A DNA stretch of 8,001 bases from JAGLHV01 sp023143305 [NCBI: Clostridia bacterium]. GTDB taxonomy: Bacteria; CBDUZB01; JAGLHV01. The notes beneath the pieces were generated by a model, which made no database searches, had not been told where the DNA came from, and worked only from the letters and a program-made list of their open reading frames with translations. The stretch is from positions 1 to 8,001 of the forward strand of contig DAOVVV010000060.1 of the NCBI GenBank assembly GCA_030637025.1, written 5' to 3'. The translations under genes were made by a program, and so were the position numbers. Numbering within the stretch: the stretch's first letter is position 1; every line of letters begins with the position of its first letter. Shown here piece by piece: positions 1,796 to 5,848 of the stretch.

Positions 1796-1801
1796 CTTAT
1801 A
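1796..1801 (-). promoter_or_regulatory. Possible -10 box for hydG at the left edge of element A
   Basis: The minus strand reads TATAAG (5 of 6 match to TATAAT) about 50 nt upstream of the hydG start. It spans the exact boundary where similarity to element C begins. No convincing -35 box lies 17 nt upstream (TAAAGA at best), so this is weak. hydF lies about 850 nt upstream across the composite element, which makes a separate hydG promoter plausible. Confidence 0.2.
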
Positions 1802-1834
1802 TTAAAATAAATGCTTTTTCTTTATTCTGCCTGC

Positions 1835-1853
1835 CCGCCAATTTTCAAGGCGG
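1835..1853. repeat. Left-end hairpin of element A
   Basis: CCGCC (1835-1839) pairs with GGCGG (1849-1853) around a 9-nt AT-rich loop. The equivalent in element C has one G-to-A style change in the right arm (GGTGG), which keeps a G-U pair in RNA. In copy B this hairpin is degenerate. Confidence 0.5.
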
Positions 1854-1872
1854 ATCATTCCTTTTTTCATCT

Positions 1873-1921
1873 TGTCATTCCTCTTTTTATTCTGTCATTC
1901 CTCTTTTTATTCTGTCATTCC
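1873..1921. repeat. Element A tandem array, 20-nt unit
   Basis: TGTCATTCC occurs at 1873, 1893 and 1913, an exact 20-nt period, with CTTTTTAT or TTTTTTCAT between copies. The last copy runs directly into the first full palindrome at 1917-1936. The same array, with slightly different spacer letters, is in copies B and C. Confidence 0.8.
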
Positions 1922-1936
1922 TGCGAAAGCAGGAAT
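1917..1936. repeat. Palindrome A1
   Basis: Perfect palindrome ATTCCTGCGAAAGCAGGAAT: 8-bp stem around GAAA, preceded by TGTC and followed by CCA. The same unit occurs at 2023-2042, 2465-2484 and 5711-5730, and inverted at 2518-2537 and 5764-5783. Confidence 0.9.
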
Positions 1937-1949
1937 CCACTTTTCTGTC

Positions 1950-2009
1950 ATTCCTGCCCCCTGCGGAAGCAGGGGTAAACTTGTCCCCGTGAAAACGGGG
2001 AGCAGGAAT
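1950..2009. repeat. Nested palindrome A2 (three-way junction)
   Basis: The outer arms ATTCCTGC (1950-1957) and GCAGGAAT (2002-2009) equal those of the simple palindrome, but 44 nt replace the GAAA loop. The insert has two perfect hairpins: CCCCTGC-GGAA-GCAGGGG (1958-1975) and TCCCCGT-GAAA-ACGGGGA (1984-2001). Both loops are GNRA type when read on the plus strand. Flanks (TTTTCTGTC before, CCACTTTTC after) match those of A1 and A3. Confidence 0.85.
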
Positions 2010-2022
2010 CCACTTTTCTGTC

Positions 2023-2042
2023 ATTCCTGCGAAAGCAGGAAT
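2023..2042. repeat. Palindrome A3, at the 3' end of the GIY-YIG gene
   Basis: Copy of the 20-nt palindrome, starting 6 nt beyond the GIY-YIG stop codon. It could fold in that mRNA, but no T-run follows on the minus strand, so it is not a typical intrinsic terminator. The flank CCATAATC is the same as beside palindrome C1. Confidence 0.85.
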
Positions 2043-2048
2043 CCATAA

Positions 2049-2336
2049 TCATATCAAATCATAATATAAATCTTTCCATCCAGGATTAAATCTTTCAATT
2101 AATTCTATTTTCCACTCTCTTTTCCATTTTTTAATCCTTTTTTCGAGTTGAATAGCACTGTAACTATCATTGCTCTGCTCATAATATACTAACCTATGAA
2201 TGTTATATCTCTTAGTAAATCCTTCTACAAAGTTTTGCTTATGTTCATATACTCTTTTTACAAGATTATTCGTAACCCCAAGATATAATGTCCCATTCTT
2301 TTTATTAGATAATATATAAATATAATAATCTCTCAT
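2049..2336 (-). CDS. Small GIY-YIG endonuclease-domain protein inside the palindromic element
   Basis: 95 aa, a stand-alone GIY-YIG domain of the short UvrC-like or YhbQ/UPF0213-related type. Visible motifs: YYIYIL (residues 4-9) as the GIY half, TLYLGVTNNL (16-25) as the YIG half, Arg28 and EHK (31-33), the FTKRY segment (40-44), Glu65 in the QLEKRIKKW helix as the likely metal-binding glutamate, and FNPGWKDLY at the end. Known members of the superfamily cut DNA with one metal ion; the substrate of this small subgroup is not established. No added DNA-binding domain is present beyond the basic helix 66-76. Its edges are made from the repeat: the stop codon lies in the CCATAATC flank of palindrome A3, and 3 nt upstream of the start the left end of copy B begins. 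No proper Shine-Dalgarno is seen, only purine-rich AAAAAGAAG. Inference: it may act on the flanking palindromes. Confidence 0.85.
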   Translation of the reverse strand: MRDYYIYILSNKKNGTLYLGVTNNLVKRVYEHKQNFVEGFTKRYNIHRLVYYEQSNDSYSAIQLEKRIKKWKREWKIELIERFNPGWKDLYYDLI

Positions 2337-2394
2337 CTTCTTTTTCTTTTTATTCTGCCTGCCCGTAAGTTTTTAAGAAGGGTCATTCCTTTTT

Positions 2395-2468
2395 TCATTC
2401 TGTCATTCCTTTTTTCATTCTGTCATTCCTTTTTTCATTCTGTCATTCCTTTTTTCATTCTGTCATTC
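2395..2468. repeat. Copy B tandem array, 20-nt unit
   Basis: CATTCTGTCATTCC recurs at 2395, 2415, 2435 and 2455, an exact 20-nt period, joined by TTTTTT. The last copy merges into the palindrome at 2465. There are no differing spacers, so it is not a CRISPR array. Confidence 0.9.
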
Positions 2469-2541
2469 CTGCGAAAGCAGGAATCCACAATCCAAAATAT
2501 TCTCAAAATATCAATAGATTCCTGCTTTCGCAGGAATGACA
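2461..2541. repeat. 25-bp inverted pair of palindromes, copy B
   Basis: The left arm 2461-2485 (TGTC + palindrome + C) is exactly complementary to the right arm 2517-2541 (G + palindrome + GACA), with a 31-nt AT-rich spacer. Each arm is itself a palindrome, so the DNA or RNA can form one long 25-bp hairpin or two short ones. It lies 51 nt beyond the hydF stop codon. Confidence 0.9.
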
Positions 2542-2591
2542 ACAACAGTGTTTTAGTATACTTTAATGCAATCCTACTTTTTCATCTTCTT

Positions 2592-5533: not shown

Positions 5534-5553
5534 TTTATAATCTTCCGTTTATA
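5534..5553 (-). promoter_or_regulatory. Possible -10 boxes of the maturation operon
   Basis: The minus strand has TATAAA at 5539-5534 and again at 5553-5548. The second spans the left edge of element C, in the same place as the possible hydG -10 beside element A. The -35 regions are poor (TTATTT or TAAAGA). The upstream hydA terminator means a promoter must lie between 5483 and 5800. Confidence 0.25.
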
Positions 5554-5619
5554 TTAAAATAAATGCTTTTTCTTTATTCTGCCTGCCCGCCAGTTTTCAA
5601 GGTGGATCATTCCTTTTTT

Positions 5620-5715
5620 CATTCTGTCATTCCTTTTTTCATTCTGTCATTCCTTTTTTCATTCTGTCATTCCTTTTTTTCATTCTGTCATTCCTTTTTT
5701 TCATTCTGTCATTCC
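5620..5715. repeat. Element C tandem array, 20-21-nt unit
   Basis: CATTCTGTCATTCC recurs at 5620, 5640, 5660, 5681 and 5702, joined by T6 and then T7 runs, giving periods of 20, 20, 21 and 21. The last unit becomes the left arm of the palindrome at 5711. Unit number differs between copies (about 3 in A, 4 in B, 5 in C). Confidence 0.9.
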
Positions 5716-5787
5716 TGCGAAAGCAGGAATCCATAATCCAAAACATTCTTAAAATATCAATAGATTCCTGCTTTCGCAGGAATGACA
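5707..5787. repeat. 25-bp inverted pair of palindromes, element C
   Basis: Left arm 5707-5731 and right arm 5763-5787 are exact complements, with a 31-nt spacer, the same geometry as 2461-2541. The palindromes are at 5711-5730 and 5764-5783. Confidence 0.9.
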
Positions 5788-5801
5788 ACAACAGTTTTCG
5801 T

Positions 5802-5848
5802 AAAAAAATCCCAACCTTCCCGACAAATTATGTCTGAAAGGTTGGGAT
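5802..5848 (-). terminator. Intrinsic terminator of the hydA operon
   Basis: On the minus strand ATCCCAACCTT (from 5848) pairs with AAGGTTGGGAT (ending 5808): 11 bp, with an inner GACA/TGTC pairing, followed directly by at least six T (complement of 5802-5807). It lies about 95 nt after the hydA stop codon and 8 nt before the right end of element C. Confidence 0.9.

Follow-up and report, generated by a model that had tools for sequence, protein, structure and literature searches.

What moves the short palindromic repeats of bacterial intergenic DNA? Many of them have no known mover. A 2025 report in Nat Commun is said to describe the Ssn proteins, GIY-YIG nucleases that cut single-stranded DNA site-specifically and that have cognate NTS repeats in Neisseria and thousands of homologues; the cognate repeat reportedly differs by lineage. 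Among other GIY-YIG enzymes, Slx1 is a nuclease of branched DNA, and for neither Slx1 nor the UPF0213 proteins do we know of a palindrome partner. REP sequences and their REPIN doublets, with the RAYT (TnpAREP) proteins, are described in passages of PMC3116915 and PMC8266576 as hairpin repeats with a conserved 5' tetranucleotide that form inverted doublets predicted to fold into hairpins; the same passages tie the repeats to a partner gene and read singlets as remnants. The tetranucleotide preceding a REP is most often GTAG, according to a passage of PMC8266576. The neisserial dRS3 repeat, with the 20-bp pattern ATTCCC(N8)GGGAAT, occurs in intergenic mosaic arrays and is linked, in passages of PMC3898611 and PMC3046118, to the integrase of a filamentous prophage and not to a GIY-YIG nuclease. 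Here we describe a locus that we read, with a probability of roughly 0.6, as part of a REPIN-like repeat family with its own GIY-YIG nuclease, which most likely nicks the hairpin units.

The window—the whole 8,001-nucleotide stretch of DNA that was analyzed—is hydrogenase-related and encodes a radical SAM/BATS protein (its gene presumably hydG), HydF, a lyase, a TM1266-like protein, and an iron hydrogenase. Between the first two of these genes, hydG and hydF, lies a composite repeat structure that contains a small nuclease gene (1797-2548), and a gene-less element with the same two ends, element C (5549-5794), separates the TM1266-like gene from the hydrogenase gene; all features are on the plus strand unless stated otherwise. 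The left ends of the two (1797-1869 and 5549-5621) differ at 2 of 73 nt, as a preliminary description of this DNA had claimed, and the right ends (2489-2548 and 5735-5794) at 2 of 60 nt, where about three differences had been reported. The similarity on the right is part of a longer match (2450-2552 against 5696-5798; 99/103 identical). In 20 shuffles of the window in 2-nt blocks, the best match of the 73-mer was 40/73.

The basic repeat unit is a palindrome, GTCATTCCTGC-GAAA-GCAGGAATC, with an 8-bp stem and a 4-nt loop; a 27-nt copy has a predicted fold of -7.8 kcal/mol. Units are accompanied by 20-nt tandem half-units (GTCATTCC...), which tandem-repeat analysis placed at 1855-1922 (3.4 copies of TCATTCCTCTTTTTATTCTG), 2382-2470 (4.4 copies of GTCATTCCTTTTTTCATTCT), and 5607-5716 in element C (5.4 copies). 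Copy A of the composite (1797-1942; repeat family D1) consists of the left end of a C-like element, 71/73 nt identical to that of C, followed by tandem half-units and the first palindrome unit, TGTCATTCCTGC-GAAA-GCAGGAATC (1913-1937; inverted repeat I6). Copy B (2343-2548) is a nearly whole C-like element with its own degenerate left end, from ~2343. Both B and C terminate in an inverted pair of units, preceded by the half-units: 2461-2485 (I8) with 2517-2541 on the minus strand, and 5707-5731 (I4) with 5763-5787 on the minus strand. The members of each pair, taken from the inverted-repeat list, are predicted to form a 25-bp DNA hairpin (-28.4 kcal/mol, z ~ -11).

Between A and B lie the nuclease gene (2049-2336, minus strand) and two more palindromes. 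One (1947-2010) has, in place of the 4-nt loop, 44 nt with two further predicted hairpins (1958-2001), the sole case of an enlarged loop among 30 distinct class A copies (see below) from the window and from loci of its genus. The other (2019-2043), found in both the inverted-repeat list and the flank scan, sits directly downstream of the gene with its GTCA edge away from it. The composite is a mosaic: an element A truncated beyond its first palindromes is followed by the gene unit and the almost whole C-like element B. The palindrome that belonged 5' of the gene has been lost and element B is found in its place, so that the window's gene copy may have lost its mobility. As had been described, A and B form direct repeats on either side of the nuclease gene; they lie 528 nt apart and differ at 13 of 100 nt. 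The accompanying idea of a simple, single LTR-like element did not survive: an LTR element, or a solo LTR derived from one, would have near-identical bounding direct repeats, whereas A and B have diverged to this extent and B is itself nearly a whole element. With flanks as diverged as these, no target-site duplication could be made out at either end of C or of the composite, nor among the aligned Sphingobium sequences discussed below. Rfam at gathering scores identified no known RNA family, and no tRNA was found in the window. Two other structured features of the window are an inverted pair at 88-151 (GTAGTTGCC...GGGCAACTAC; I10), a GTAG-edged doublet that resembles a second, REPIN/RAYT-like repeat family, and a strong stem at 5808-5848 (ATCCCAACCTTCCCGACA/TGTCTGAAAGGTTGGGAT; I14) downstream of the hydrogenase gene, which is also present in the genome G003 and is perhaps a terminator.

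What kind of protein does the gene encode? The product, 95 amino acids long, matches Pfam PF01541 (E 3.2e-14). In an alignment of 38 proteins, from which stop-bearing and some other loci were left out, the invariant residues include Y7, Y18, R28, H32, and N84; E65 is nearly invariant, and a basic stretch at ~68-76 is strongly conserved. Judged by its sequence, which has both the domain and the catalytic Tyr, Arg, and Glu, the protein is a member of the GIY-YIG nuclease superfamily. An AlphaFold2 model (pLDDT 95.9, pTM 0.87) matched the fold of the UPF0213 protein 1zg2 (E 3.1e-4, 24% identity) and, less well, that of Slx1 (7cq2; E 7.2e-3, 21% identity); by sequence, the PDB yielded weak matches only, the best again to UPF0213 (E 0.015). 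A Neisseria gonorrhoeae homologue is 51% identical to the window's nuclease. We take this homologue to be Ssn, and the window's nuclease probably belongs to the Ssn nucleases.

The neisserial relative also raises the possibility of a role in genome maintenance or transformation control, in which the nuclease would cut incoming or displaced single strands at the repeats and so steer recombination, while the repeats spread by other means. Such a role is reportedly that of Ssn in Neisseria; the gonococcal gene lies among GTCATTCCCGC..GCGGGAATC repeats; and 50,697 phage records held no relative of the protein at E 1e-5. Taken alone, however, genome maintenance leaves unexplained why the gene lies between inverted copies of its repeat and why sites occur in gene-bearing and gene-less versions, and we regard it as rather unlikely. 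The GTCATTCCCGC palindromes around the gonococcal gene fit the dRS3 pattern as given in a passage of PMC3898611. A phage origin was rejected, as neither DNA nor protein matched the phage records, and so was a defence gene, there being no PADLOC match at E 0.1. On a Planktothrix plasmid, the nuclease gene (L118:1501-1785) lies between annotated genes for a type IIL MmeI restriction enzyme and DISARM drmA.

How general is the pairing of such genes with palindromes? Relatives were found at 15 loci in 9 of 41 genomes and at 54 loci from a species collection, whose titles include Moraniibacteriota, Shapirobacteria, and other candidate phyla, Omnitrophus, Nitrospirae, planctomycetes, flavobacteria, Balneolaceae, alpha- and betaproteobacteria, and Gastranaerophilales. 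A plasmid collection held 33 matching records, among them Rhizobium, Sphingobium, Planktothrix, and Neisseria, of which 7 were taken, picked to span organisms. First scans placed the palindrome core next to many of the relatives' genes. One locus, L001, was left out of the flank counts, as its contig and that of L016 are evidently one (each 3496 nt long, with mirrored matches). A word of at least 14 nt was common to the upstream and downstream flanks (300 nt each) at 34 of 68 loci; in the controls, the count was 7/199 for mispaired flanks and 0/60 for distant ones. Up to 120 nt from the gene, perfect hairpins with a GTCA edge pointed outward far more often than inward, both upstream (27 vs. 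4) and downstream (32 vs. 5); in these counts and those of shared words, the upstream and downstream labels of L002, L006, L011, and L015 are swapped, which leaves outward and inward unaffected. At 120-240 nt downstream the orientation was reversed (1 outward, 8 inward), as would be the case if another inverted unit came next, and the arrays are more complex than one doublet.

The flanking palindromes fall into three classes: class A, with a loop of 4 (GAAA, GAAG, GCAG, and similar); class B, with a loop of 5 around CTTGA/CTTGT; and class C, with imperfect GTCATTGCGAG/GTCATTCTGAG stems. The class rules were drawn up after inspecting the flanks and were controlled by offset and by flipped orientation. 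An outward unit, with its GTCA edge away from the gene, lay within 220 nt at 64 of 76 loci and on both sides at 36, and the flipped orientation gave 24/76; some loci are close kin (e.g., L030, L031, L036, and L040), so that a count of loci is not a count of independent events. At offsets of 220, 440, 660, 880, and 1100 nt, outward counts were 10/75, 5/71, 1/71, 2/69, and 2/66. The check proposed in the preliminary description, of whether other small GIY-YIG genes have flanking palindromes, is therefore answered in the affirmative (64/76, vs. 1-2 of 66-71 at 660 nt or more). Twelve of the 76 loci had no palindrome of the three classes, including L009 and L014 (whose proteins are the two most remote of all and branch together), the Rhizobium gene L115, and L018, where a GTCA hairpin was missed by the loop rule. 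At L008, L035, L064, L065, L068, and L069, the matched frame contains stops or frameshifts, as expected of a selfish or dispensable gene. In-frame stops were also flagged in L044, and the stop-bearing loci are decayed, frameshifted, or using another code.

Does the class of palindrome follow the protein? On a maximum-likelihood tree of the 76 proteins, with stops in the matched frame set to X, the labels A, B, C, and none need 15 changes; shuffled labels needed a mean of 35.6, and 0 of 200 shuffles were as low. The tree rests on 95 columns, and kinship alone makes palindrome classes cluster, so that the match between class and tree supports, but does not prove, recognition by each nuclease of its own palindrome. 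Beyond L016, the window's closest neighbours on the tree are the rows L019 (Moraniibacteriota), L017 (an unclassified bacterium), L020 (Omnitrophus), and L010 (genome G006). Because these rows, all class A, span distant groups, the tree suggests transfer of the gene between them.

Across 193 genomes, the window's palindrome (GTCATTCCYGCN4GCRGGAATC) occurred in 38, its reversed control in none, and the gene (E 1e-12) in 34, as counted with a single query sequence that could miss remote relatives. The palindrome was present in 21 of the 34 gene-positive genomes and in 17 of the 159 gene-negative ones (Fisher p 1.1e-9, odds ratio 13.5), with 608 and 96 copies, respectively; when the window's genus was excluded, the counts were 19/32 and 16/158. 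Gene-negative genomes had up to 17 copies and, because 17 of 159 carry it, the palindrome persists or spreads without a detected gene. The two findings named in advance as signs of a chance association both occur in part: 17/159 genomes have the palindrome without a detected gene, and 12/76 genes lack a classed palindrome. The partnership of a small GIY-YIG nuclease with dispersed palindromes, proposed from the window alone, is strongly supported by the tests of flanks, orientation, covariation, and genome counts.

Could another enzyme be the mover? The palindromes might be REPs moved by HUH Y1/RAYT transposases, with the GIY-YIG gene a passenger or a settler in repeat-rich intergenic sites. 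Y1 transposases do associate with the palindromes (31/93 vs. 7/100 genomes, odds ratio 6.6), even among gene-negative genomes (13/67 vs. 4/92), and GTAG-type doublets are present in the window's genus. However, the association of the GIY-YIG gene with the palindromes holds in both Y1-positive (18/26 vs. 13/67) and Y1-negative genomes (3/8 vs. 4/92), and three genomes with the gene and palindromes, G002 (18 copies), G173 (4), and G187 (172), had no Y1 match at E 1e-10. A fixed outward orientation and a class that tracks the protein are unexpected for a passenger. Moreover, REPs are mostly preceded by GTAG in the relevant passage of PMC8266576, and these units by GTCA. We consider it very unlikely that the GIY-YIG gene is a bystander.

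The preliminary description also called for occupied and empty sites in close relatives, and both kinds turned up. The congeneric genome G002 carries the gene (91% protein identity) not at the window's locus but between gltD and carA, in a minimal unit: a GTCATTCC unit, the gene, and an inverted unit. The LTR-like reading of A and B as the basic architecture was rejected, since this congeneric gene unit is bounded by an inverted palindrome pair. The gltD-carA site measures ~510 nt in G002 and ~40 nt in G001, which has no GTCA unit there but has ~107 nt nearer gltD that are absent from G002; in G003 the site holds a remnant of a unit beside another repeat. At the window's own two sites, G003 has no such element and has GTAG-type doublets, together with a remnant of the right end at the second site. 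Neither was accepted as a clean empty site: hydG-hydF lacks the composite but has a GTAG-type doublet, and TM1266-hydA retains the right-end remnant. At L076 and L135 in G003, GTAGCCGCAGGCTTTAGCCTGCG repeats occupy intergenic sites where the window or G002 carries GTCA elements, as if both families favour the same spots. A mixed doublet of a class A unit and an inverted class B unit (GATTCCGCATCAAGTGCGGAATGAC) recurs among L081-L111 in G002 and G003, where several class B loops have inserted palindromes such as TCCGCCTGAGGCGGA.

A site on Sphingobium plasmids, at fnrL, was found in three states, which are not polarised: gene-bearing in 7 records (of the 4 that were aligned, one lacks 1 nt of the gene), with a single GTCA...TGAC palindrome in 2 records (one with two changed stem bases), and with neither in 2 (TomTYG65, which has a different hairpin, ATTCCAGC-CTCC-GCTGGAAT, and TomTYG72, with other sequence). 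The suggested solo relation of a C-like element to a gene-bearing one has a counterpart here, in the single palindrome and the gene-bearing version of one site. For Rhizobium plasmids there was no empty partner, as all eight records covering at least 80% of the query carry the gene, and CIAT894 was the only match to itself over most of the query.

These sites bear on a further alternative, a homing-type selfish gene, whose nuclease would cut gene-less palindromes and be copied in by repair, the palindromes being targets rather than products. The single palindrome of TomTYG64 has the outer edges of both units that flank the gene where the site is occupied, as though such a palindrome had received the gene, and the nuclease matches a PHROG of homing GIY-YIG proteins (E 1.2e-4). 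Yet in G002 palindromes far outnumber genes (18 palindromes, 1 gene match), and other sites in the same 50-kb Sphingobium stretch hold gene-less doublets, one of them in all five plasmids compared, whose subterminal sequence resembles that of the gene-bearing element, as would suit their origin by deletion. We think homing distinctly unlikely.

How might a repeat family with its own nuclease work? The basic unit would be a hairpin with an oriented 5'-GTCA edge; the doublet, two inverted units with GTCA outermost; and the full element, a doublet whose units enclose the GIY-YIG gene. Short-spacer doublets, such as element C, and single units would be gene-less derivatives. Because gene and palindrome associate, we infer direct recognition: the GIY-YIG nuclease very probably acts on these repeats, and cognate recognition of the palindrome is highly likely. 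The nuclease most likely recognises the hairpin and its GTCA edge in single-stranded DNA, such as at replication forks or in incoming or displaced strands, with single-stranded GTCATTCCTGCGAAAGCAGGAATC as the proposed target. A GAAA loop closed by G-C pairs makes an exceptionally stable DNA hairpin, and the unit is therefore suited to recognition as a single strand. From this stability and from the REPIN/RAYT-like features (an oriented hairpin, an edge tetranucleotide, inverted doublets, and a matched small nuclease), we propose that the nuclease would nick the recognised unit, as is reported for the Ssn nucleases that it resembles; cleavage of the unit as a single strand seems likely. The repeat could then be copied to new intergenic sites when the nick is repaired from another copy or when the freed hairpin end is joined, and recombination or slippage between two units could delete the gene and leave a solo copy. 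That the nuclease is what spreads the repeats is close to an even call, with the balance slightly against. The locus ties one of the many intergenic repeats, and two further classes, to one small-enzyme family in many bacterial groups, and the rule of GTCA outermost with units inverted around the gene lets a nuclease be paired with its repeat from sequence. Who spreads or polices the repeats can be tested directly with a 95-aa protein and short oligonucleotides.

How does this family compare with known systems? Like Ssn, the window's nuclease is a small stand-alone GIY-YIG protein; its N. gonorrhoeae homologue lies among GTCATTCCCGC palindromes, and a lineage-specific cognate repeat is common to both, for Ssn reportedly. 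As with Ssn, the cognate repeat is both near the gene and dispersed, the dispersal being seen in genomes congeneric with the window. The gene-bearing unit here is an inverted repeat pair with the gene inside, and there are gene-less doublets as well. The expectation that this would be a different kind of system is thus probably not borne out, given what is reported of Ssn nucleases and their cognate repeats; what may be new is the carriage of the gene between inverted copies of its repeat, the gene-less doublets, and the site polymorphism, and not the gene-repeat pairing. The UPF0213 and Slx1 nucleases share the fold of the window's protein at the low identities given above. The dRS3 pattern given in the passages cited agrees with the class A core in its CCC variant, whereas the window's own core is ATTCCT...AGGAAT. 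Features of REPIN/RAYT in the cited passages—dispersed inverted hairpin doublets, an edge tetranucleotide, and a partner gene—are matched by the window's family, except that the edge is GTCA, not GTAG, and the partner a GIY-YIG nuclease, not an HUH Y1 transposase. More broadly, and tentatively, at somewhat below even odds, the locus may represent a class of mobile element that is widespread in bacteria and whose GTCA-edged hairpin repeats are mobilised through single-stranded DNA by a 95-aa GIY-YIG nuclease, with palindrome-gene-palindrome units as full elements, gene-less doublets as non-autonomous ones, and neisserial dRS3 and similar repeats as products: an independently evolved counterpart of REPIN/RAYT.
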